From Solibacillus palustris (GTDB lineage: Bacteria; Bacillota; Bacilli; Bacillales_A; Planococcaceae): a stretch of 64,000 nt of DNA. Where the stretch lies: the NCBI RefSeq assembly GCF_022549215.1, contig NZ_JAKZFC010000003.1, positions 186,001-250,000 on the forward strand, read 5' to 3'. A program made the position numbers and the translations under genes. Shown here piece by piece: positions 33,043 to 47,073 of this stretch. The notes under the pieces were generated by a model. It was not told the origin of the DNA, searched no databases, and saw only the letters and a program-made list of their open reading frames with translations. Each line of letters begins with the position of its first letter. Position 1 is the stretch's first letter.

Positions 33043-34233
33043 TTGGAACGAGTAGTAGGAACTGTAGTACGAGGTCTTCGTGGCCCAATTATTAATGAAG
33101 GGGACGACATTGTACAAATCGTCGTTGATACAGCATTAAACGCTGCGAAAGTTGAAAGTTTTTCTATTGAAGACCGCGACATCGTAACTGTAACAGAATC
33201 AGTAGTAGCACGTGCACAAGGTAACTATGCAAAAATTACAGATATTGCTACGGACGTACAAGCAAAATTCGGTGAAGACACTGTCGGTGTAATTTTCCCA
33301 ATTCTTTCACGTAACCGTTTCTCAAATATTTTAAAAGGGATTGCAAAAGGAACAAAAAAAATCGTTCTTATGTTAAGCTACCCTTCTGATGAAGTTGGAA
33401 ACCACTTAGTAACATTAGATGAACTAGACGAAAAAGGCATCAATCCTTGGACAGATGTTTTAACTGAAGCTGAGTTCCGTGGACACTTCGGTTACAACAA
33501 ACATACTTTCACTGGTGTTGACTATATCGAATACTATAAAGAATTAATTGAAGAACAAGGCGCTGAAGTGGAAGTTATCTTCTCAAATAACGCGAAAACG
33601 ATTTTAGATTATACAAAGAGCGTACTTACTTGCGATATTCACTCTCGCTTCCGTACAAAACGCATTTTAAAAGCTGCTGGTGCTGAAAAAGTATTCGGCT
33701 TAGATAACATTTTAAATGAATCTGTAAATGGTTCTGGCTTCAACACAAACTACGGTTTACTAGGCTCAAACAAATCAACAGAAGATGGTATAAAATTATT
33801 CCCTGATAACTGTCAACCAATCGTGGATGACATTCAAGCGAAAATTTTAGCAGCTACAGGCAAATTAGTAGAAGTAATGATTTACGGTGATGGTGCGTTC
33901 AAAGATCCAGTAGGTCAAATTTGGGAACTTGCTGACCCAGTTGTATCACCTGCGTACACTCCAGGACTTGACGGTACACCAAACGAAATCAAATTAAAAT
34001 ATTTAGCAGATAACGATTTCTCTGAATTAAAAGGTGAAGAGTTAAAAGCTGCCATTAAAGAATATATTAACAACAAAGAAGAAGATTTAACTGGTCAGAT
34101 GGCAGCTCAAGGGACAACGCCTCGTAAGCTAACTGACTTAATCGGTTCATTATCTGACTTAACTTCTGGCTCTGGCGACAAAGGAACACCAATGATTTAC
34201 ATCCAAGGTTACTTCGATAACTATACAAAATAA
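33043..34233 (+). CDS. CofE-like (F420-0:gamma-glutamyl ligase family) protein
   Basis: Protein of 396 residues resembling the CofE/FbiB ligase domain. The N-terminal text GTVVRGLRGPIINEGDDIVQIVVDTALNAA...SIEDRDIVTVTESVVARAQGN matches the CofE start, where the family ligates glutamate to a lactate-phosphate cofactor with GTP. Bacilli of this kind do not make F420, so the substrate must differ, and I do not know it. TTG start at 33043, six bases after GAGGAGAG. It is transcribed divergently from a LysR regulator and ends in a perfect terminator. Confidence 0.75.
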   Translation: MERVVGTVVRGLRGPIINEGDDIVQIVVDTALNAAKVESFSIEDRDIVTVTESVVARAQGNYAKITDIATDVQAKFGEDTVGVIFPILSRNRFSNILKGIAKGTKKIVLMLSYPSDEVGNHLVTLDELDEKGINPWTDVLTEAEFRGHFGYNKHTFTGVDYIEYYKELIEEQGAEVEVIFSNNAKTILDYTKSVLTCDIHSRFRTKRILKAAGAEKVFGLDNILNESVNGSGFNTNYGLLGSNKSTEDGIKLFPDNCQPIVDDIQAKILAATGKLVEVMIYGDGAFKDPVGQIWELADPVVSPAYTPGLDGTPNEIKLKYLADNDFSELKGEELKAAIKEYINNKEEDLTGQMAAQGTTPRKLTDLIGSLSDLTSGSGDKGTPMIYIQGYFDNYTK

Positions 34234-36360: not shown

Positions 36361-36602
36361 GTTTTATCACAGCCCCTTTCATCTTTTTTTTGCTCAAACC
36401 AGCAAATCTCCCCCTAAATATTAGCCACCAAGTTAAATAGAGGTAACTGAAACAATTGTAATTAAACTGTAATTAATGCTAGTTTACCTAGTAATAGCAG
36501 TCTATTGGCGCACTTTCAAAATCTACTACCAACATTTCCCTCCAAGTATTATATATTTTCCATGATAAAGTCGTTAGTGTACTAAATTTGGAGGTAACTA
36601 TT

Positions 36603-37529
36603 ATGAAAAAACGTTTCGTAACAACTGTCGCTTTAGCAATTGGGATTAGTTCATTTTCTACAATGCCAGCAATAATGGAACCAACACCTGTATATGCTGC
36701 AAATGTACAAAATAATGATCAAGCCGTTGCTATTAAAGCCAATCAATTAATTACTACTGCAAAAAGTTTAATCGGGAAAGCAACTTATAGTAATACCGTC
36801 TATAAACCTACTGCACCTTATAAATTTTCATGTGCCACTTTTTTAATGTATATTTTCGAGAAAAATGGCGTAGATTTAGCAACTTATAACGAAAACTATA
36901 TGATGCAACAAGGAACCTATGTACCACGTAACCAGCTTCAAAAAGGGGATTTATTATTCTTTAAAAGTAAAAAAACAGGAACAGACCCAGACCATGTTGG
37001 GATGTACATTGGAGATAATAAAATCATTCACATGGCTGATTCAAAACAAAACATTGTTATTTCAGATTTAAATAGTAAGCCGTACTACAAGGATAATTAT
37101 GTAACCGCTCGTCGCGTACTACCAACATTAATGAGTGCAAATCCTGCAACAACAGGAGATAAAATTGTTGCCAATGCGTACGCTACGAAAGACCAAGTAA
37201 AGATGGGCTCAATTAATAATGATGCTTCATTACGATTTACATCAGGCGGCTTCATTGAATATACGTACCGAAAAAATGGCGTTTTATTAAAAACCAAAAC
37301 ACTTAGCGAGCAAATGAAACTTGGTACAGCTGTTTCTAAATCAAACTTAAAAAAAGGGGATTTAGTATTCTTCAACAGTACGAAGGGATCTAAAACACCA
37401 ACACAAGTTGCAATTTATGCAGGTGACCACCGATTAATTATTCCTACGAGTAATGGAGTTATTACACGTGTTTTACTAGTAGATTATTATAAAGATCATT
37501 ATATTACCGCTAGACGTGTAACGAAATAA
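36603..37529 (+). CDS. Secreted NlpC/P60 protein with one intact and one degenerate domain
   Basis: Exported protein (308 aa) with a signal peptide (MKKRFVTTVALAIGISSFSTMPAIMEPTPVYA). The first NlpC/P60 domain (about residues 50-185) keeps the catalytic Cys in KFSCATFLMYIF and the His in DHVGMYIGDNKIIHM. The second domain (about 190-308) repeats the same layout (KKGDLVFFNS, QVAIYAGDHRLII) but has SGG in place of the Cys and Gln in place of the His, so it should be inactive. Likely a gamma-D-glutamyl/diamino acid endopeptidase with a binding second domain. GGAGG before the ATG at 36603. Confidence 0.85.
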   Translation: MKKRFVTTVALAIGISSFSTMPAIMEPTPVYAANVQNNDQAVAIKANQLITTAKSLIGKATYSNTVYKPTAPYKFSCATFLMYIFEKNGVDLATYNENYMMQQGTYVPRNQLQKGDLLFFKSKKTGTDPDHVGMYIGDNKIIHMADSKQNIVISDLNSKPYYKDNYVTARRVLPTLMSANPATTGDKIVANAYATKDQVKMGSINNDASLRFTSGGFIEYTYRKNGVLLKTKTLSEQMKLGTAVSKSNLKKGDLVFFNSTKGSKTPTQVAIYAGDHRLIIPTSNGVITRVLLVDYYKDHYITARRVTK

Positions 37530-37600: not shown

Positions 37601-38989
37601 TCATTCACTACTTTTTAGTTGTTTAGCAAATTGAATCATTGCTCGACTCGACATCGGGCCCTTAATGAGCAAAAGTGATTCTCTATCTAACTGTTGCTCT
37701 AGTAACTCATACACACCTTTAATGTCTTTATACATATATACTTTTGCTGATGTTCCGTCTGCAATTGCTTGTTTGGCAATATTCTCGGCTTTCGTTCCAA
37801 CCGTTATTAACGTGTGAATCGGATAGGTGGCAACTAAACTCCCTAATTCCATGTGATATTTTTTTTCGAATTTGCCAAGTCTTTTAATATCACCTAATAC
37901 TAAATAACGCTTCTTACCATTCCCTACCGAATCTAGCACCTTTAATGCTGCTTCTAGTGAGGTTGGGTTATTTGTCCATGTATCATCGATAATCGTGCTC
38001 CCGCCTACTCCCTTTGAAAACTGTAAATGGCGCTCCATTTGCTCGAAAGTTCTTAACTTTAAGATTGCCTTTTGAACAGATAGGCCAAGCTCATGAATGA
38101 CCGCTAGCACTGCAAGAACGTTGTACACTTGATGTTCCCCGTAACCCGGAATATAGGCTTGAAATTTTTTGTTATTGATATGAACCTGAAATTTCATGCC
38201 TTTTTCAGCAAATTGCACTGCCGTGGCGTATATGTCCGCTTTATTTTTAATGCCAAATGTAAACACTTTATTTTGATACGTTGATAAAGGAAGTTTCTTT
38301 GTATTTTCATCATCGCTGTTAATGATTAGTGTTCCTCCCGCACGTATTCCATTTAAAATTTCGGATTTCGCTTTAATGTAGCCATCTAAATTTTTACATC
38401 CATCTAAATGATGTACACCTATATTTGTAATTACACCAATGGTTGGCTGGTAGATTTGACATTGATAGCTGATATTACCTGTATTCCCTAAGCCTAATTC
38501 AAAAACTGCCGCTTTTGTGTCATCATCAATTCCTAATAAATATGTTAATGTTTGACGCGGTTCGTTTTTACTACTTACGGATGTTTGAACGTTCATTTCA
38601 TTACTTAATATATGTTTGAGCATTTCTTTCGTAGTCGTCTTTCCACAAGTTCCAGTAATTGCAACAACGGGAAGGTCAAACAAGTTCCGATAATACGTGC
38701 AAAATACAAAGAAAGCTTGTAAAAGATTGCGAACATAAATAGCGGTAATTTGAGATAGTGCTTGATTTTGCAGTTTCTCCTTTTCATCACAAACAATTAA
38801 TAAAGGCTTTATATTATTTAATTCTTCCCAATTTATATCATCACTTTTGCGGATAAACAACATTGTATTCGGTGCGATTAATTGCTGTGGATCATAATTC
38901 ATAACATGCTTCACAAACCAATTTTCAGCACCGTTTATTAATTGCCCTCCTAGCAATTGACGTATGGTTTTTACGTGTAAAGCTCGGAT
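37601..38989 (-). CDS. MurF-like ligase A (Mur ligase family, diverged)
   Basis: ATP-dependent amide ligase with Mur ligase central and C-terminal domains (462 aa). ITGTCGKTTTKEML is the P-loop, FELGLGNTGNI and NIGVHHLD follow, GYGEHQVYNVLAV is the MurF-like segment, and SLLLIKGPMSSR closes the third domain. The family motif DDTYNANPxS is replaced by DDTWTNNPTS. The N-terminal 90 residues do not look like the UDP-binding domain. Homology to ligase B continues 11 codons before the first TTG, up to an ATC at 38989 that follows AAAGGGGG by seven bases; I take this ATC as the start. It is 33 bases after the ATP-grasp gene, probably one operon. Confidence 0.8.
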   Translation of the reverse strand: MRALHVKTIRQLLGGQLINGAENWFVKHVMNYDPQQLIAPNTMLFIRKSDDINWEELNNIKPLLIVCDEKEKLQNQALSQITAIYVRNLLQAFFVFCTYYRNLFDLPVVAITGTCGKTTTKEMLKHILSNEMNVQTSVSSKNEPRQTLTYLLGIDDDTKAAVFELGLGNTGNISYQCQIYQPTIGVITNIGVHHLDGCKNLDGYIKAKSEILNGIRAGGTLIINSDDENTKKLPLSTYQNKVFTFGIKNKADIYATAVQFAEKGMKFQVHINNKKFQAYIPGYGEHQVYNVLAVLAVIHELGLSVQKAILKLRTFEQMERHLQFSKGVGGSTIIDDTWTNNPTSLEAALKVLDSVGNGKKRYLVLGDIKRLGKFEKKYHMELGSLVATYPIHTLITVGTKAENIAKQAIADGTSAKVYMYKDIKGVYELLEQQLDRESLLLIKGPMSSRAMIQFAKQLKSSE

Positions 38990-39022
38990 AAAATCGCCCC
39001 CTTTAAATTAGGTTATGAAAGT

Positions 39023-40312
39023 TTATCCATCTTTCTTAGGTGATCTATTCATAAGTTTATAATTCATTATCGTGTTGTACATCGTTGTGTCTTCTAATGT
39101 TTGAAAGAACGACAAATCTGGTACATAATTACCTTCAATAACCCATATCCTCCCCAAATCTGTTACCGCTATATCAAAGCCAATAATGTTACGTTCTGCT
39201 GATTGGTCAAGCAAATGGGATGCTGCTTTACAAACGGTATCTATTTGATTTTCAAGTTGCCCATGAAACTTTGAAAGTACAGTAGATTGTCTTAGCGCTT
39301 GTTGCAAAGTCAAAATAGATTGAGCTGCATTCGTTACAAAAAAATGAGGCCCTGCAACTTTTACCACTTTGCCAGTTACATACCAATCATTTGCTACCTT
39401 TTGCGTCATAACTCGGATATCCATAAATCGATTATCGATTGTCGCTAATTCAATACCCCGTTGAATGATATAGTTTTCATCTATTGGAGCAATTTTGCGA
39501 ACATGCTCATACACTTGCTCAATACCTGCTATTGCCCATTTTTGTCTTCCCATCTGAATTTCATAATTTCGCATTCCTCTTTTGTGAATTTTTATAATCC
39601 CTTTTCCTTGTTGCCCATTACATGGCTTTAAAAATACAAGGGAATACCAACTTAAATAGCATGAAAATGTTGACGTCGTTAGTAAATCCGTTTGGGGCAT
39701 GAAGTTCGCGATACTTTGATATTGATTCCATTTACTAACCGAGAAATGGAGAAAAGAATCGGTAATCACTATATCCCCTGCTAAATTAAATATCAACTCT
39801 ATAACTATAGATTCACAATTGGTATAAGATGGTCCCAGTTGTTCAGCCGCCATGATCGCAACTTTTTGTAATTGTACTTGGTGCCTAAAACAAGCTACTG
39901 TTTCAATAATATTGAGATTTTGTTTTGATGAATGTGTAACATACCAGCGTTCATTGCGTCTTTGAACAGTTACTAAACAGTGATACCCTTTTTTACTTAG
40001 AAGTGTCGTATGAAAATGCGATTGAATGATATAATTTCTAGCACCAATAATCTGTTGAATATATTCATAAAGACCTTCTTCTAACATGTCAACTACTCTA
40101 ACTTTAGTTTTTATCTGATACATTCCTTGATGTTTTGTCACAATAATAAAATCCATGCCAACAATTGGTTTCAGAATGATTTGATGCTCTAGCTTCAACA
40201 TGGAGTACAATGCATCCTTTGAAAAACGTTCAATCTTGGCTAAATACGGTTGCAATTGCTCATGTTGCATTAGTATTTTATATTGTTCGATTCTCCCCCT
40301 AATCGCATGCAT
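39023..40312 (-). CDS. Tandem ATP-grasp protein of the YheC/YheD type
   Basis: Protein of 429 residues made of two ATP-grasp halves. The C-terminal half (about 215-429) has LVFLKPCNGQQGKGIIKI, ENYIIQRGIELATIDNRFMDIRVMTQK and IGFDIAVTDLGRIWVIEGNYVPD, the YheC/YheD spore-coat ATP-grasp pattern. The N-terminal half follows the same order (HQIILKPIVGMDFIIV, NYIIQSHF, IVIELIFNLAGDIVITDSFLHFS) but lacks the Gly-rich loop and the metal-binding Asn, so it is probably inactive. GGGGAGG five bases before the ATG sets the start. It precedes MurF-like ligase A. Confidence 0.82.
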   Translation of the reverse strand: MHAIRGRIEQYKILMQHEQLQPYLAKIERFSKDALYSMLKLEHQIILKPIVGMDFIIVTKHQGMYQIKTKVRVVDMLEEGLYEYIQQIIGARNYIIQSHFHTTLLSKKGYHCLVTVQRRNERWYVTHSSKQNLNIIETVACFRHQVQLQKVAIMAAEQLGPSYTNCESIVIELIFNLAGDIVITDSFLHFSVSKWNQYQSIANFMPQTDLLTTSTFSCYLSWYSLVFLKPCNGQQGKGIIKIHKRGMRNYEIQMGRQKWAIAGIEQVYEHVRKIAPIDENYIIQRGIELATIDNRFMDIRVMTQKVANDWYVTGKVVKVAGPHFFVTNAAQSILTLQQALRQSTVLSKFHGQLENQIDTVCKAASHLLDQSAERNIIGFDIAVTDLGRIWVIEGNYVPDLSFFQTLEDTTMYNTIMNYKLMNRSPKKDG

Positions 40313-40338
40313 GATGGCCTCCCCCGATACATTTTATA

Positions 40339-40372
40339 AAAGCCCCATCAATTCATAATTGAAGGGACCTCA
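40339..40372 (-). terminator. Intrinsic terminator after the Cys-capped protein gene
   Basis: On the minus strand CCCTTCAATT and AATTGATGGG pair around ATG, with one mismatch, and TTTT follows. It separates this gene from the ATP-grasp gene; read-through is possible. Confidence 0.6.
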
Positions 40373-40389
40373 TTCACATCAATGCACCT

Positions 40390-40824
40390 TTAACATTGAC
40401 AACCTAAAGCAACAACTGATCCTTGCTTAACGGGTACAGTACCATCTTGATTAAAGAATCCTTTAATGACGAAGCTTTGAACTAAATCATTATTTGCAGT
40501 TGCTACTTGATCTCTGAATACTGCTTTAAATGGGTATTCTGTCATCCCAATTAGCCCAGTACCACGAACCTTTATAACACAGTTCTTCCCTTCTCTTTTA
40601 CATTTCACATCTGTAATTTCATTTGCAGTAAATATAAAACTAAAACTATCTGGTGTTTCAGTATCTTCAAATAGTAATGACAGCGTAGAAGTATTTAGCG
40701 TAGTAATACATACATTGGCAAGGTATGTTAAATTCCCGCGAATATTTCCAACACCATCGAACTTAACATTTACGCCTTCGGCAAAAGCATTTACACGCAC
40801 ACCACATGGACAAATACCTCCCAT
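40390..40824 (-). CDS. Cys-capped hypothetical protein in the ligase cluster
   Basis: I do not recognise this 144-residue protein. It begins MGGICPCG and ends GCQC, so cysteine pairs lie at both tips, with a mostly beta-type body (NVKFDGVGNIRGNLTYLANVCITTL, SLLFEDTETPDSFSFIF, VIKVRGTGLIGMTEYPFKAVFRD, SFVIKGFFNQDGTVPVKQGSVVALG). There is no signal peptide. Such terminal cysteines and a beta body are seen in self-assembling spore-surface proteins; that role is inference from location among the YheC/YheD-type and CotY/CotZ-like genes. AAGGGAGGGG precedes the ATG. Confidence 0.65.
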   Translation of the reverse strand: MGGICPCGVRVNAFAEGVNVKFDGVGNIRGNLTYLANVCITTLNTSTLSLLFEDTETPDSFSFIFTANEITDVKCKREGKNCVIKVRGTGLIGMTEYPFKAVFRDQVATANNDLVQSFVIKGFFNQDGTVPVKQGSVVALGCQC

Positions 40825-40968
40825 AGTTTCCCCTCCCTTCTTGTATGATTAATACACTATATTAAATTAATATTTCTGGTGCTTGTGTATTTGCCATTGG
40901 CGGTTCTGGTGCCTACATGCGTGTCATGTATAAATTGATTTGTGTCAAAAAAGCAACTTATTACGCAC

Positions 40969-42345
40969 TCATGTTTTTTTCTTCAATTTTGATGCTAAAT
41001 CAAACATTGTTTTACTATACATATCTCCTTTAATTAAAATAATTGTATTGCGATCAATGATTACTTTTAATAGTTCATAGGCTAACACACTATTAATAAA
41101 ACGATATACTTGTGCTTGTATCCCTAACTCCTCCGCATGATCTGCAATAATTTTTGCATGTTCTCCAACGGTAATGAGTATATCTACTCCTTTTTCTAAT
41201 ACAATCTCTGCTGCTTTTTTATGAATAAACGTTCCCCATGAACCGACATCGGTAATTGTTCCAATAATGGCAATACGCTTCTTTCCACCAGCAAGTTCAT
41301 TTAATACAGTTAAGGCCGCTTCAAGTGATGTTGTTGTAATGCTCCACGTATCATCCAGTAAGAGCGCATCATTCATACCTTCAAATAATTGCAATTGTTT
41401 ATTGAGCGGACGATATGTTTGTAACTGTCCCGCTGCTTGAGGTATTGTTAACCCCATCTCAACTACTGCCACAATAGCAGCTAATGCGTTCATTACTTGG
41501 TGTTTTCCAAAGCCAGTAACGTTTACTTTATGGTGCTCCCCCTTATGAACAACTACAAACTCCATACCATTTGTACTGTAGCGGATATTTGTAGCGGCAA
41601 AATCATTTGAACTTTTCGTTCCAATTTTTATGAGTCGCCCTTTGAATTTTTGGAAATCTATTTTGCTTGTATTACGATCCTCCCCATTAATGATTAACAC
41701 ACTATTTTCATCTAATATTTCTAACATTTCAGCCTTAGCGTCAATATAACCCTCTAATGTTTTGCAATAATTTAAATGATGTTCTCCAATATTTGTAATA
41801 ATTCCAATTGTCGGCTTGTAGTACTTTCCAGCTTGATGCAAATCTCCTGGTGCCCCTACAGCAGTTTCAAAAACTGCTGCCTCTGTATCACTTTCAATAC
41901 TTAATAAGTATTGAAAAAAGGCCGTCCTAGAATTCGTACTAAGCTGTGTTGCCGTCACTTTTTTATAACGCATTAAAATATGTTTAATCATTTCTTTCGT
42001 TGTTGTTTTGCCTGCTGTTCCCGTAATAGCCACAACCGGTAGCTGAAATTGTTGTCGATAGAAATGGATAAATTTCCATAGCGCTTCCTCAGAGCGCTCT
42101 ACCTGGATTACCGTCACTTCATTTGGAAGTTCCTTCGTGTGATAATGCCACTCCGTAACAAGTACAAGCGGGAAACATGGCGCTAATTTTGCCCAATTCA
42201 TAATGCGCTTTTCAATAAACAAAACCGTATTTCGCCGCTTTACCTGTTTTAAACGATATGCCCCATAATGAATACCGATTGACGAGCCATGTATATGTTT
42301 TCCATCAACAATAGTACATAATGTTTCAACAGAAATTGGTTTCAT
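40969..42345 (-). CDS. MurF-like ligase B (Mur ligase family, diverged)
   Basis: Second stand-alone Mur ligase homologue (458 aa), roughly collinear with ligase A. The P-loop is ITGTAGKTTTKEMI; FETAVGAPGDL, NIGEHHLNYCKTLEGYIDAKAEML, INGEDRNTSKI, GFGKHQVMNALAA and TIILIKGDMYSK follow. DDTWSITTTSLEAAL replaces the MurF substrate motif DDTYNANPxS. It lacks a recognisable UDP-MurNAc-binding N-terminus. The ATG at 42345 has GGAAGGTG nine bases upstream; a GTG at 42357 overlaps that site. A sigma-K-like promoter precedes it, divergent from a stand-alone ATP-grasp ligase. Confidence 0.82.
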   Translation of the reverse strand: MKPISVETLCTIVDGKHIHGSSIGIHYGAYRLKQVKRRNTVLFIEKRIMNWAKLAPCFPLVLVTEWHYHTKELPNEVTVIQVERSEEALWKFIHFYRQQFQLPVVAITGTAGKTTTKEMIKHILMRYKKVTATQLSTNSRTAFFQYLLSIESDTEAAVFETAVGAPGDLHQAGKYYKPTIGIITNIGEHHLNYCKTLEGYIDAKAEMLEILDENSVLIINGEDRNTSKIDFQKFKGRLIKIGTKSSNDFAATNIRYSTNGMEFVVVHKGEHHKVNVTGFGKHQVMNALAAIVAVVEMGLTIPQAAGQLQTYRPLNKQLQLFEGMNDALLLDDTWSITTTSLEAALTVLNELAGGKKRIAIIGTITDVGSWGTFIHKKAAEIVLEKGVDILITVGEHAKIIADHAEELGIQAQVYRFINSVLAYELLKVIIDRNTIILIKGDMYSKTMFDLASKLKKKT

Positions 42346-42371
42346 AATACATTTCACCTTCCTTTCACTCT

Positions 42372-42400
42372 TAGCATATGTTCGATGAATTTTTAGACGT
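42372..42400 (-). promoter_or_regulatory. Sigma-K-like promoter before MurF-like ligase B
   Basis: AC (42400-42399), 18 bases, CATATGCTA (42380-42372) on the minus strand. The -10 fits CATANNNTA exactly; the spacer is one base longer than for gerE. It lies about 30 bases before the start. Confidence 0.45.
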
Positions 42401-42432
42401 AGATATTTGAATTATATAGGTTGGATAACCAG

Positions 42433-42459
42433 ACAAAATCTATTTATCACCATACTTTT
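42433..42459 (+). promoter_or_regulatory. Sigma-K-like promoter before the stand-alone ATP-grasp ligase
   Basis: AC (42433-42434), 16 bases, CATACTTTT. One position of CATANNNTA differs. It lies about 40 bases before the start, divergent from the promoter of MurF-like ligase B. Confidence 0.35.
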
Positions 42460-42500
42460 AAGAGGAGGTACTTTCATCAATTCGAATGGAGGTGAATGAA

Positions 42501-43709
42501 TTGAAGACAATTGTTTTTATTGGTACTAACAAATCTGGCTCAAGCAGGGAAGCAACAAAAGCAGCGGAAAAGTTGGGTTATTTTACCGTTCTATTTACAA
42601 GTAACGAAAGACAATTTGAACAGCGTGAGCAATACGTGGATATCCATAAAATGATTGTTGTGGATACTTCAAATATGGAGGCTTTGAAAGCGGAAATTGT
42701 TAAACTTCAACAAATCGGATTAGAAATTAAAACGATTGTTAGTTTTGTGGACCCCTATGTACATGTGGCTTCCTTACTTTGCGATATGTTTTGTCAAAAT
42801 CTCACCTCATCAAAAGCAATTGAAATTATGGAGGATAAAGAGGAGACACGAAAGTTTTTACTGAACAAATCATATACGCCACAATTTACAGTCATTGGAC
42901 CAAACGAAATACCAACAGGCAAATTAATATTCCCTCTCATCATTAAATCTCCAAAATCAACTGGCTCTAAAGATGTATTATTTGCTAAGGATAAAAAGGA
43001 ATTTAACAAGCATCTTGCAACGCTTCAAAGTAAATATCCTACCGAATCCATTATTTATGAGGAATACTTAAAAGGTGAACAATATTTAGTGGAAGTTATT
43101 GTACAAAAACATCTTCCCCATATTATTGCAGTCATGAGACAAGATATTACAAAGGGAAAACGATTCATTATTACAGGCTATCAGCTATTTGCAAATATAC
43201 CTCCAAATTTGTTACCAGATCTTGAAACGCTTTGCCAATCCATTGTAGAAACGTTCGATATTAATACTGGGGCTTTTCATTTAGAATTACGACTAATAGG
43301 AAATAATTGGAAGTTGATTGAAATAAACCCACGTATTTCAGGTGGAGCTATGAATAGAATGATAGAGGCCGCATTTGGTATTAATTTGGTAGAGCAAACA
43401 TTAAAACTCTATCTCGGGGATGAACCAGATTTCACACCTAAACATCACCATTTTGTCTATACTAAATATTTAATTGTCCATCGAAAAGGTAGATTAGAAA
43501 AAGTAACAGGAAAGCTACGCGCCTTAAAATCCCCAGGCATTTTCGAAGTGTATATTAAACCTAAAAAAGGCACAATACTCATCCCCCCTTTATCAATGGG
43601 ACATCGATATGCCTACATCATTGCTCAAGGCAGTTCTATAAGTGAAGCCGTATCACGTGCTAATCGGGCAGCCCACGAAATAAAATTTCACATGCACCAT
43701 CTACAATAA
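42501..43709 (+). CDS. Stand-alone ATP-grasp carboxylate-amine ligase
   Basis: ATP-grasp ligase (402 aa) of the carbamoyl-phosphate synthase/BacD-like kind, which joins amino acids or dipeptides by acyl-phosphate chemistry. An N-terminal Rossmann-like preATP domain (TIVFIGTNKSGSSREATKAAEKLG) is followed by KSPKSTGSKDVLFAKDKKEF, IYEEYLKGEQYLVEVIVQ, TGAFHLELRLIGNNWKLIEINPRISGGAM, with the metal-binding Glu, Asn and Arg intact. The TTG at 42501 is five bases after GGAGGTGA; the in-frame ATG at 42486 is part of that site. A sigma-K-like promoter (AC-N16-CATACTTTT) lies at 42433-42459. Confidence 0.85.
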   Translation: MKTIVFIGTNKSGSSREATKAAEKLGYFTVLFTSNERQFEQREQYVDIHKMIVVDTSNMEALKAEIVKLQQIGLEIKTIVSFVDPYVHVASLLCDMFCQNLTSSKAIEIMEDKEETRKFLLNKSYTPQFTVIGPNEIPTGKLIFPLIIKSPKSTGSKDVLFAKDKKEFNKHLATLQSKYPTESIIYEEYLKGEQYLVEVIVQKHLPHIIAVMRQDITKGKRFIITGYQLFANIPPNLLPDLETLCQSIVETFDINTGAFHLELRLIGNNWKLIEINPRISGGAMNRMIEAAFGINLVEQTLKLYLGDEPDFTPKHHHFVYTKYLIVHRKGRLEKVTGKLRALKSPGIFEVYIKPKKGTILIPPLSMGHRYAYIIAQGSSISEAVSRANRAAHEIKFHMHHLQ

Positions 43710-43710
43710 G

Positions 43711-43893
43711 AAAAGCGCTAAAGCGCCCTTCCAGCCCCGAGTGGGCAAAACGCCACGTCCATGTGGCATGCCCTCAATGACTCACATCGTGTGAGCCTCA
43801 GACATTGGAGAGCCCGACGCAAAAGTAAAAGCTCCACCACTTTTGCAGGAGGGATCGAAATGACCGAGGGGCTGGCGCTTTAGCCTAGACACT
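43711..43893. repeat. Structured MITE-like repeat, about 180 bases
   Basis: The ends GCTAAAGCGCC-(4 nt)-CAGCCCC and GGGGCTGGCGCTTTAGC pair fully except for a 4-base bulge. Inside are CCAC/GTGG, CTCACA-TCG-TGTGAG and GCAAAAGT/ACTTTTGC hairpins. GC content is well above the surroundings. It lies between the convergent ATP-grasp and fusion genes and resembles the dispersed structured repeats of Bacillaceae genomes. No transposase is nearby. Confidence 0.7.
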
Positions 43894-43925
43894 TTGTAAA
43901 AATTTATTCTTTCAAATATTTTAAG

Positions 43926-43971
43926 AAAAAAGGCTATACGAAAAGAAAAACTTTCCGTATAGCCTTTTATT
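43926..43971 (-). terminator. Intrinsic terminator after the fusion ligase
   Basis: AAAAGGCTATACG and CGTATAGCCTTTT are exact complements around a 19-base loop. On the minus strand a T-rich run follows, eight bases after the fusion gene stop. Confidence 0.85.
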
Positions 43972-43978
43972 ATGCGAA

Positions 43979-46291
43979 TTATGCTTTAAATTGCTTATCT
44001 AAAAATTGAATCGTTTCAAACATATTTGTTTTACTTGCACCCTTAACTAAAATCGTATCTCCTCTTCTAACCATGCCTTTTAGAAACAAATGTAATTGAT
44101 CCTTGTTAATAAAATGGTGAATGTTCATTGCTGGTATGCCACTTTTTTGTGCTGCTATCCCGATTTCCTCCGTCCGGAATCCGTACGTAATTAATTGATC
44201 TATTTTTTTATCCCCAATATACGCACCTAACTTACGATATTCTTCTTCTCGCAAATCTCCTAATTCACGCATTTGTCCAATAATTGCAACTTTTCGCCCT
44301 TTTGCAATTTCACCTAACACATCAAGTGCAGCGCGAACCCCCTGTGGATGCGAGTGTACCGTGTCATCAATTAACAAAATATCATTTCGGCAATGGTAAA
44401 GCGTTAAACGACGTGGCGGCTTTTTGAATACTAAGCCCGCCTGAATAACATCTGATGAAAATCCTAATTGGTCCGCCACCGCTATAGCATTTAACGCATT
44501 ATATACATGGTGCTCCCCTAAAATTGGAATAAACATCGGGATTTCCTTATTTCGTAATCGGATGTTAAAAGTCATACCATCATCTTTATACTGCACATCA
44601 TAAGCCATATAGTCTGCCTTTTTATGAATACCAATTGTCTTTATTTGTCCTTTAAATTGGTCGGTTAATAGCCATTTAGAATTATCATCGTCTTTATTTA
44701 ATATGAGTAATCCATTTTGATCCATTCCTTGAATTAGTTCTGATTTGGCTTTTGCCACGCCTTTAATGTCACCATCAAAGTTCCCTACATGCGCTAATCC
44801 AATATTTGTTACTACGCTAATGTTCGGTTGAATGATTTCACAATGATCAGTAATGACACCTGGATAGGCCATACCGTATTCTAAAACAACAGCTTTATGG
44901 GATTCGTTAATAAGTTCCTTATGCTTTTTCGTATGCTCCGTTGTATTCCAATAATCTTTCGACTCAAAAATGGACCAATTTTTTGATAAAATCGATGCAA
45001 TGAATGCTTTTGTCGTTGTTTTTCCTGCACTCCCTGTAATTGCAATAATTGGTTTTTCAGTTGTTTTCAACGCTCTTCCTTTAATTGGGACAACTGGTTT
45101 TTCAGTTGTTTTCTCTACACTCTCTGTAATTGCAGCGATTGATTCTTCAGTTGTTTTCTCTGTACTTTTTGTAATTGCAACAATTGGTTTTTCAATTGTT
45201 TTCTCTGCTGGTGCTAGATTTTTGGCAGCTTGAATTTGCGCTTTTATCTCCTGCTGATGATGTGCAATGTAATTTGCATACTGGAGGGTATGTCGGACAA
45301 CATCTAATTCCAAGTAAAATGCTGGTGGACACCCTGGCCGCCAGTTAACTTCATAAATCCAAAGTTTGCCGTTTTTATCTAAGCCAACGTCAATACCGAT
45401 TTCATCAATTACTTCCTGAAATTTATCCATTTGAATGTCATCTAAATGACGCGCTAATGACAAGCCAAAATGCTCTAGCATACGCTTAATATTAAACGCC
45501 TCACGAGGAAATTGTAATTGTAAAAAAGGCTCTAAGTAATTTGTAAAACCACCATTATTAATATTAGGAACTATCGAACCTTGTGGCGCAACACGAGGAT
45601 ATACGGTCGTAATGATCCACTTACCTTCACCATTTTTTTGAACATGAATTCTAAAATCAAATACTTGCCCGTTTTTCAACGTAGATTGAATATATGGTTG
45701 CAATATAAATGCTTCTTCTGCTAACTGTTTTTTTAAAAATGTGTCTAGCTGATCCTTTGTTAGTTTTTCTTTCTGTGTATCCTTTTGTACTTCATAGCCA
45801 TTTGCTAGTATTGAAATATAATATATCCCCTTACCTTTACGGCCTTCAACCGGCTTAAAAACTACTTTTTTGTATTTTTGAATATGCCGGTAAAATTGTT
45901 CCTCATTTTGTACACTCTCAGTAGGGATGAGGTAACTTGCAAACTCCTTCCCCTCCTGTAAACGTTTGGTTATACTCAGTTTGTTGCCGATGGAATTTGT
46001 CGTGAAAGGAATTTCATTTCGCAATAGCCTTAAAATATTTTTCGAAATTGCTAATTTTTCTGGGCTTCCTGCGTTATAGATGACATCGGGAAATGGGACG
46101 GTTTTTTCTTGCCAGACTCCATCTTCTAAAACTTTCGCTTGAATCGTTCGTGTTTTGAAGTCAACCGCTCTAGGTGTGAAATAATAAAACAACATCCCTT
46201 CCGCCTTTGCAACTGCTGCAAACGCATATGACTTCAAAACGGTTTCTGGATCTTTACGATGGTGCAACATGCCAATTGTTGTCAAAAACAT
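43979..46291 (-). CDS. ATP-grasp/MurF-like fusion ligase (cyanophycin-synthetase-like layout)
   Basis: A 770-residue fusion. Residues 1-350 are a YheC/YheD-type ATP-grasp module (GNKLSITKRLQEGKEFASYLIPT, VVFKPVEGRKGKGIYYI, FDFRIHVQKNG, IGIDVGLDKNGKLWIYEVNWRPGCP). Residues 362-421 are four 15-residue units that are copies of the P-loop strand (EKPIVAITKSTEKTT, EESIAAITESVEKTT, EKPVVPIKGRALKTT, EKPIIAITGSAGKTT); only the last has the real GSAGKTTTK. Residues 410-770 are a Mur ligase (VLEYGMAYPGVI, NIGLAHVG, LGEHHVYNALNAI, DDTVHSHPQGV, TILVKGASKTNM). Order ATP-grasp then Mur ligase equals that of cyanophycin synthetase. It follows the coat-protein-like gene by 18 bases. Confidence 0.85.
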   Translation of the reverse strand: MFLTTIGMLHHRKDPETVLKSYAFAAVAKAEGMLFYYFTPRAVDFKTRTIQAKVLEDGVWQEKTVPFPDVIYNAGSPEKLAISKNILRLLRNEIPFTTNSIGNKLSITKRLQEGKEFASYLIPTESVQNEEQFYRHIQKYKKVVFKPVEGRKGKGIYYISILANGYEVQKDTQKEKLTKDQLDTFLKKQLAEEAFILQPYIQSTLKNGQVFDFRIHVQKNGEGKWIITTVYPRVAPQGSIVPNINNGGFTNYLEPFLQLQFPREAFNIKRMLEHFGLSLARHLDDIQMDKFQEVIDEIGIDVGLDKNGKLWIYEVNWRPGCPPAFYLELDVVRHTLQYANYIAHHQQEIKAQIQAAKNLAPAEKTIEKPIVAITKSTEKTTEESIAAITESVEKTTEKPVVPIKGRALKTTEKPIIAITGSAGKTTTKAFIASILSKNWSIFESKDYWNTTEHTKKHKELINESHKAVVLEYGMAYPGVITDHCEIIQPNISVVTNIGLAHVGNFDGDIKGVAKAKSELIQGMDQNGLLILNKDDDNSKWLLTDQFKGQIKTIGIHKKADYMAYDVQYKDDGMTFNIRLRNKEIPMFIPILGEHHVYNALNAIAVADQLGFSSDVIQAGLVFKKPPRRLTLYHCRNDILLIDDTVHSHPQGVRAALDVLGEIAKGRKVAIIGQMRELGDLREEEYRKLGAYIGDKKIDQLITYGFRTEEIGIAAQKSGIPAMNIHHFINKDQLHLFLKGMVRRGDTILVKGASKTNMFETIQFLDKQFKA
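45016..45205. repeat. 45-bp tandem repeats inside the fusion gene
   Basis: GGTTTTTCAGTTGTTTTC or close variants recur at 45051, 45096, 45141 and 45186, exactly 45 bases apart. They encode four 15-residue copies related to the Walker A strand of the Mur ligase domain. Confidence 0.9.
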
Positions 46292-46309
46292 ACACTCCTT
46301 TTTATCCCA

Positions 46310-46735
46310 CTACCATTTCGACTCAATATAAGTATTTTTGCTTAACAATGCTGGCTCTAAAAGTTGAATCGCCAACATGGAACCAAGGTCAACGGTCATC
46401 TGCGTTTCAGTTTTTTCTAGCCGAATAACGTCTTTTATTACATTCGTATTTTGCTCTTCTATATCAACTGCGCGTAATAACGTTAACTTGACGCGTGACT
46501 TTTCAATTGCTTCTAAACGAAAGAAGCTTGTTGCTGTATGTGTTTTTGGATTCACTACTGTATATAGCTTACATTCCTTAGTCGTGAAGCAAAACGGAAT
46601 CGTGTCACTCCCAACTAACTTCTCAAAAAAATGACCATAGTATTTTGACCAAGAATTCGTGAGTAAGTCTTGCAATTGTTTCAAATCGTTTAGTGCACCA
46701 TAAAGCGGGTGTTGCTTTTGATTTTCATTGTTCAC
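46310..46735 (-). CDS. CotY/CotZ-like spore coat protein without the cysteines
   Basis: Protein of 141 residues whose order of motifs follows CotY/CotZ: ALNDLKQLQDLL, SDTIPFCFTTKECKLYTVV, TSFFRLEAIEKSRVKLTLLRA and TVDLGSMLAIQLLEPALL near the end, where CotZ has a TVDL...AIQCLP stretch. Most of the crosslinking cysteines of CotY/CotZ are absent; only two remain. In B. subtilis CotY/CotZ build the outer crust. The start is GTG at 46735 after GGAGG. A sigma-K-like promoter lies upstream. The fusion ligase follows 18 bases later, so the two are probably co-transcribed. Confidence 0.7.
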   Translation of the reverse strand: MNNENQKQHPLYGALNDLKQLQDLLTNSWSKYYGHFFEKLVGSDTIPFCFTTKECKLYTVVNPKTHTATSFFRLEAIEKSRVKLTLLRAVDIEEQNTNVIKDVIRLEKTETQMTVDLGSMLAIQLLEPALLSKNTYIESKW

Positions 46736-47073
46736 AATACTTCCTCCCTCTTTGTCTCGTACACAGTCCTTTTCAGCAGTTAACGATTCTTACAAAGTGC
46801 TTCTCTCTACGATATGACTGTACATGAATTGTTGGTGATAAGTTACGCCCAATTATTAAAATTTCAGTTCTGTTTTTCTCACCAATAACTCCTGCCTTTT
46901 TTACATCAACAACATTTGGTTTTCGAAAAAAATTTTCAATCCTCCACAACTGACCACTATTGTTTAATGTATATTGACACTTTTAACCATACCAATTATT
47001 TGTTAAGGTATCAGTAATCGCGAAACAGAAAAAATTATCAGCTGAACGACAACATTTTGGAGGGACTTATTGT
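46736..47073. other. Intergenic region with divergent promoters
   Basis: No gene here. The minus-strand sigma-K-like promoter of the coat-protein-like gene is at 46808-46836. A plus-strand TTGACA (46974-46979) with a weak TATTTG 17 bases later may drive the ECF S component; GGAGGG at about 47060 is its ribosome binding site. I see no riboswitch that would reveal the transporter substrate. Confidence 0.5.
46808..46836 (-). promoter_or_regulatory. Sigma-K-like promoter before the coat-protein-like gene
   Basis: AC (46836-46835), 18 bases, CATATCGTA (46816-46808) on the minus strand. The -10 matches CATANNNTA. It would give a leader of about 65 bases. Confidence 0.45.

Follow-up and report, generated by a model that had tools for sequence, protein, structure and literature searches.

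What is the function of a block of amide-forming ligase genes that lies beside a gene for a CotZ-like protein in Solibacillus palustris? The block is located in a stretch of 64,000 nucleotides, hereafter the window (RefSeq assembly GCF_022549215.1, contig NZ_JAKZFC010000003.1, positions 186,001 to 250,000 of the forward strand), and the coordinates given below are positions in it. The genes from nlpC through the cotZ-like gene form one presence/absence unit which, judging from its distribution and upstream sequences, is linked to sporulation and carries mother-cell-type promoter motifs. We give about an even chance to the reading that the block is a mother-cell amide-ligase pathway making a non-ribosomal peptide or isopeptide for the outer spore surface.

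Window proteins were searched with Pfam and NCBIfam models. Seven genes of the block had been named in an earlier sequence-only reading, and all seven were found where it had placed them. An eighth member had been missed, namely a gene for an NlpC/P60 peptidase (36588–37529, plus strand; Pfam NLPC_P60, 5e-35) with two NlpC domains and a signal peptide judged by eye. For gene order, 39 loci of related genomes were read, together with 80 named loci out of a scan of the collection that found 127 relatives. The usual order was the cotZ-like gene, a gene for a fusion of ATP-grasp and Mur ligase, a gene for an L-amino-acid-ligase-type (LAL) enzyme on the opposite strand, two genes for MurF-like ligases and the NlpC/P60 gene. 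This order was conserved across genera, which argues that the cluster is not due to chance. The cluster was found in at least ten genera; its bearers include Lysinibacillus, Psychrobacillus, Metasolibacillus, Sporosarcina, Lederbergia and Neobacillus, and also Heyndrickxia, Domibacillus, Peribacillus, Jeotgalibacillus and Calidifontibacillus. An expanded form at locus L069 combined two MurF-like ligases, several YheC/D proteins, a CotZ-like protein and an LAL in one stretch.

The boundaries of the unit were drawn from 151 genomes of the family. At a threshold of E up to 1e-50, an NlpC orthologue was present in 41 of them, the same 41 that bear the cluster, and the remaining 110 had neither (Fisher p 6e-38, shared ancestry ignored). 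The bearers, whose lists were compared by hand, are 40 genomes with the fusion gene and one genome, G141, in which the cluster is cut by a contig end (locus L074). In rearranged clusters, nlpC tended to stay next to the gene for MurF-like ligase 1. Among 87 NlpC orthologues, the first domain keeps its Cys and His, and the second has no conserved Cys. Within the genus, 6 of 16 genomes carry the unit, and in the ten congeners without it the flanking F420_ligase and ECF-S genes are 0.3 to 6 kb apart. Four of these empty sites were read; in two of them the permease gene is directly followed by the ECF-S gene, with about 210–230 bp between, and in the other two the F420_ligase gene directly precedes the ECF-S gene. 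This co-occurrence, together with the closeness of the flanks in cluster-less congeners, establishes nlpC through the cotZ-like gene as one unit of presence and absence. The F420-0:gamma-glutamyl ligase family protein (396 residues; 33043–34233, plus strand; PF01996), about 2.4 kb from the unit, also belongs to an amide-forming class; it was rejected as a member, being kept at 92–94% identity in the ten unit-less congeners. The amino-acid permease was likewise rejected, as it is still at the site in two of the four cluster-less congeners that were read.

The cluster was restricted to spore formers. SpoIVA was present in 117 of the 151 family genomes, including all 41 bearers, and none of the 34 genomes lacking SpoIVA had the cluster (Fisher p 5e-6, shared ancestry again ignored), so that one outcome which the sequence-only reading had named as fatal to its proposal, homologues widespread with no spore or polymer link, did not come about. 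The sigma-E/K -10 motif CATANNNTA was counted in the 150 bases upstream of each gene, after removal of similar sequences, and compared with 200 dinucleotide shuffles. It was present upstream of the cotZ-like gene, the LAL gene and the genes for MurF-like ligases 2 and 1 in 20/59, 22/69, 27/52 and 25/56 sequences, respectively, against 3.6, 6.9, 4.9 and 4.6 in the shuffled sets, and for all four leading genes none of the 200 shuffles reached the observed count. No clear enrichment of the motif was detected before the genes for the fusion, the Cys-capped protein and the second YheC/D enzyme, which are operon-internal, or before nlpC. In the window, a sporulation-type -10 element CATATCGTA upstream of the cotZ-like gene (46808–46816, minus strand) is kept in aligned relatives, and a sigma-K-like promoter of the LAL gene with the pattern AC-N16-CATACTTTTA (42433–42460, plus strand) is also kept in relatives. 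The motif scan gave two further sporulation-type -10 elements on the minus strand, CATATGCTA upstream of MurF-like ligase 2 (42372–42380) and CATAACCTA upstream of MurF-like ligase 1 (39009–39017). A scan for sigma-70 promoters and terminators gave sites no more frequent than in shuffles.

The two stand-alone MurF-like ligases, of 451 residues (ligase 1; 37601–38956, minus strand) and 462 residues (ligase 2; 40969–42357, minus strand), match Mur_ligase_M, and their top model was murF. With this model (TIGR01143; cut-off 288.6 bits), the cluster enzymes scored 268 bits (ligase 1), 236 bits (ligase 2) and 249 bits (fusion), all below the cut-off, and the genome's own MurF, encoded at a separate locus, scored 420 bits. 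Motif alignment bore out the earlier observation that all three have lost the UDP-binding motifs and the substrate motif of MurF; the stand-alone pair retains a motif-free N-terminal stretch of about 90 residues, and the Mur half of the fusion has none. Loss of the catalytic residues of all ligases, which would have spoken against the proposal, was not found: each group, aligned over 77–90 orthologues, keeps the P-loop, the Glu in the motif that follows, TNIG..H, the AK.E Lys and the DD in the C-terminal domain. Each group has its own substrate loop, namely DDTWtnNPTS in ligase 1, DDTWsxtTTS in ligase 2 and DDTVHSHPQG in the fusion, and in ligase 2 another residue stands in place of the aligned MurF Arg (nkqL). 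From these motifs, the cluster Mur ligases look active and specialised. In a tree of 74 rows, MurF formed one clade (99/94) with the cluster enzymes outside it; the two stand-alone cluster enzymes formed a second clade (100/100), and the fusion type with its stand-alone and inverted-fusion relatives formed a third (99/97).

These results bear on the explanation that the unit makes a peptidoglycan variant, such as an altered stem peptide of the cortex or germ-cell wall produced during sporulation. The kinship to MurF would fit it, as would the NlpC/P60 peptidase, from a family that usually cuts muropeptides. However, the motif losses in all three enzymes, the missing aligned Arg in one group, a normal MurF in 12/12 genomes checked and the linkage of surface-type proteins to the ligases speak against it, and we regard it as very improbable. 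A peptidoglycan MurF paralogue was rejected in view of the N-terminus, the substrate motif, the tree and the true MurF elsewhere in the genome.

The fusion enzyme of 770 residues (43979–46291, minus strand) consists of a YheC/D ATP-grasp domain (approximately 45269–46012) followed by a MurF-like ligase (approximately 44036–45040), with YheCD, Mur_ligase_M and Mur_ligase_C matches of 217, 122 and 64 bits, respectively. Pfam thus placed an ATP-grasp domain and then a Mur ligase within one chain, as the sequence-only reading had stated when it compared the protein with cyanophycin synthetase (CphA). Its sporulation-linked amide-ligase cluster was borne out by SpoIVA, the promoter motifs and the catalytic motifs, but the likeness to CphA was not supported beyond the domain order. 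The CphA models TIGR02068 and PRK14016 gave 56.1 and 54.2 bits against cut-offs of 850 and 877, respectively, with the best stretch in the Mur half; for the CphA N-terminal domain, no Pfam hit was obtained in the fusion up to E=1, and the YheCD match begins after only about 93 residues. The structural comparison with CphA and MurF that had been proposed as a check favoured MurF as the best match of the predicted fusion structure (predicted local distance difference test, pLDDT, 72), with CphA ranked lower; both parts align to the CphA structure 7lg5, yet with a root-mean-square deviation of 22 Å over the whole chain. Homology to CphA was rejected as the explanation in view of the model scores and the kind of domains. 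Mur and YheC/D were also found unfused, side by side, and fused in the reverse order, the latter forming a separate clade, so the fusion joins enzymes that also occur separately, and the recurrence of such joinings between the same two partners is an argument for a common pathway. The inverted fusions (MurF-like then YheC/D, approximately 800–850 residues) were found in L059, L060, L169, L179 and L186, away from the sporulation cluster.

A second explanation is a free amino-acid polymer, soluble or capsule-like in the style of poly-gamma-glutamate or cyanophycin, which would be deposited on the spore with NlpC acting as depolymerase. The domain order shared with CphA counts in its favour, and relatives of the Mur half adjoin PGA_cap (CapA/PgsA family) genes in 14 loci, with NlpC in several, a set that parallels PgsB, PgsA and PgdS. 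However, a PGA_cap gene was searched for in the unit and none was found there, the genome's single PGA_cap gene being elsewhere, and the CphA scores and the missing CphA N-terminal match tell against a cyanophycin-type enzyme. The presence of several distinct ligases points to a product of defined sequence and not to a homopolymer, and the unit ligases are of MurF type, whereas CapB was reported to be closer to FPGS (PMC11915815). The PgsB NCBIfam model was not among the 25 best models listed for any of the three Mur proteins. We therefore rate a free polymer as unlikely. The 14 loci with PGA_cap genes (within L167–L205, e.g., L168:8615–10951) encode stand-alone MurF-like ligases of 370–410 residues without an N-terminal domain, and such loci, some with NlpC, possibly represent a separate, uncharacterised peptide-polymer module.

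The ATP-grasp gene at 42.5 kb had been recognised earlier, but its type had been overlooked. The LAL (42486–43709, plus strand) has ATP-grasp_4 (1e-16) and LAL_C2 (2.4e-18) domains and the conserved motif WKLIEiNPRiSGG, and its nearest solved sequences include the L-amino acid ligases 4wd3 and 3vot; on this basis it is of the dipeptide synthetase type. Its start may be later than the listed ATG, as the best alignment with relatives begins at a TTG about 15 bases farther downstream, and this candidate start is preceded by GGAGGTG. In other genera and families, an LAL gene was found with a free-standing YheC/D gene, often as a trio with a cotZ-like gene, without any Mur ligase. At L192:10034–11014, an LPG_synthase_C family gene directly follows an operon of LAL and two YheC/D genes. 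LAL and YheC/D are also encoded on the Priestia megaterium plasmids pBM300 and pBM600, and P. megaterium strains without pBM600 have no exosporium (PMC4674009).

The LAL also raises the possibility of a small-molecule pathway, in which LAL, YheC/D and MurF-like enzymes would make a peptide metabolite, such as an antibiotic, a germination signal or a spore solute, and no surface structure. The nearest solved structures of the LAL are makers of free dipeptides, as L-amino acid ligases such as BacD are, and in some families the LAL–YheC/D pair lies near sugar-metabolism genes. This explanation fits poorly with the CotZ-like and Cys-rich proteins of the unit, with the constant presence of the NlpC peptidase and with the lack of a transporter or resistance gene in the unit, and we consider it rather unlikely. 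Of the three alternatives, the free polymer ranks first, followed by the small molecule and then the modified cortex.

For the outer-surface pathway, candidate acceptors are encoded in the unit itself. The CotZ-like protein of 141 residues (46310–46735, minus strand) matches PF10612 (Spore-coat_CotZ) weakly (25.8 bits against a cut-off of 24; 1.3e-5) and over residues 42–127 only, and the genome's canonical CotZ is encoded at a separate locus. It has 2 Cys residues here, and its orthologues have 0 to 14. Its C-terminal tail is EPKW in 54 of 78 full clusters and ESKW here. The position of its gene, immediately upstream of that for the fusion, and the conserved tail make it the best candidate acceptor. 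An optional module is composed of a YheC/D-type ATP-grasp protein of 429 residues (39023–40312, minus strand; PF14398, 2.7e-48), whose N-terminal half gives a further, partial YheCD match, and a small Cys-capped protein of 144 residues (MGxxCPCG...GCQ; 40390–40824, minus strand) that matches no family. The only YheC/D matches in the genome are the two cluster proteins (216.7 and 164.9 bits; PF14398 cut-off 26.8). In the 78 clusters holding both the fusion and MurF-like ligase 1, some genomes being counted twice, both genes of the module were present in 35 and neither in 39, with YheC/D alone in 4 and the Cys protein alone in none. The Cys-capped protein is presumed to be a structural or substrate protein of this module, on which the second YheC/D enzyme may act. 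The CPC near its N-terminus and the Cys near its C-terminus were as described earlier, except that of the C-terminal pair the inner Cys alone is conserved. Its AlphaFold model was all-beta at low confidence (pLDDT 54), with a best PDB structure match of E 0.78, and no fold is therefore claimed; a PDB sequence search with it returned nothing significant.

LAL-type enzymes ligate amino acids to one another, and the dipeptide that MurF attaches is the product of an ATP-grasp enzyme; we therefore propose the LAL dipeptide as donor for the MurF-like and YheC/D ligases. LAL would join two amino acids, as Ddl does for MurF, and the fusion and the two other MurF-like ligases would use ATP to activate acceptor carboxylates and would attach the dipeptide or single amino acids stepwise, each enzyme with its own substrate loop. 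As acceptor, a spore-surface protein from the unit is probable, and the first candidate is the tail at the C-terminus of the CotZ-like protein; where the optional module occurs, the second YheC/D enzyme would serve the Cys-capped protein. The product would be cut by a cognate hydrolase, the exported NlpC/P60 peptidase, one of whose domains is intact and the other Cys-less. In this model the dipeptide donor, the acceptor, the product and its place in the exosporium or outer coat are inferred. The more specific form, a protein-primed non-ribosomal tail in which LAL dipeptides are added by MurF-like and YheC/D enzymes to the CotZ-like C-terminus and trimmed by NlpC/P60, is somewhat unlikely.

Several points weigh against an outer-surface peptide. 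The unit is present in only 6/16 genomes of the genus, so that sporulation can proceed without it. The resemblance of the CotZ-like protein to CotZ is weak, some members have few Cys, and about one fifth of the tails are without the KW ending. The signal peptide of NlpC and the missing sporulation -10 motif before its gene raise the possibility of a role outside the mother cell or at a different stage. The link between pBM600 and the exosporium is a correlation, and this 100-kb plasmid also bears other exosporium genes; a small soluble product is possible since LAL-type enzymes mostly give free dipeptides.

Each enzyme class is already known, and the 2009 amidoligase survey reportedly took in YheC/D-type ATP-grasp enzymes. 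No description of this enzyme set as a sporulation unit was found in the searchable open-access literature, subscription papers being outside the search. The unit gives YheC/D proteins a directly testable role, and suggests an amide-linked, ribosome-independent peptide on spores of many Lysinibacillus, Psychrobacillus, Sporosarcina, Neobacillus and related species. If present, such a peptide layer would matter for adhesion, resistance and germination; a protein-primed tail would amount to a second, murein-like peptide assembly line for the spore surface, and the ligases could serve as protein-modification tools.

Compared with known systems, the unit resembles MurF with Ddl in the partnership of an ATP-grasp dipeptide ligase with a MurF-fold ligase and in the Mur middle and C-terminal domains with their catalytic motifs, but differs in its lost UDP-binding motifs, altered substrate loops, position outside the MurF clade and sporulation promoter motifs, the true MurF being encoded elsewhere. 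The fusion shares with CphA the order of ATP-grasp and Mur ligase in a single chain, but its ATP-grasp is of YheC/D type, its Mur half is MurF-like and the N-domain has no match. With PgsB/PgsA/PgdS (CapB/CapA), the likeness lies in a Mur-fold ligase without N-domain, an NlpC/P60 hydrolase and the PGA_cap neighbours of Mur-half relatives, whereas the unit itself has MurF-type enzymes instead of PgsB and no PGA_cap. The LAL shares LAL_C2 and ATP-grasp domains with the L-amino acid ligases 4wd3 and 3vot/BL00235, and differs in its constant genomic partnership with YheC/D enzymes and, in the unit, with spore-type genes. In Bacillus subtilis, yheC and yheD belong to the sigma-E genes that SpoIIID up-regulates (PMC517825); these YheC/D ATP-grasp proteins are alike in kind, but in the unit such proteins either form a fusion with a Mur ligase or share a cluster with Mur ligases, LAL, CotZ-like protein and NlpC. 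Pseudomurein clusters of methanogens also combine several Mur-type ligases with an ATP-grasp protein for cell-wall peptide synthesis (PMC11915815), but they serve an archaeal cell wall, include an MraY-like enzyme and have no link to sporulation.

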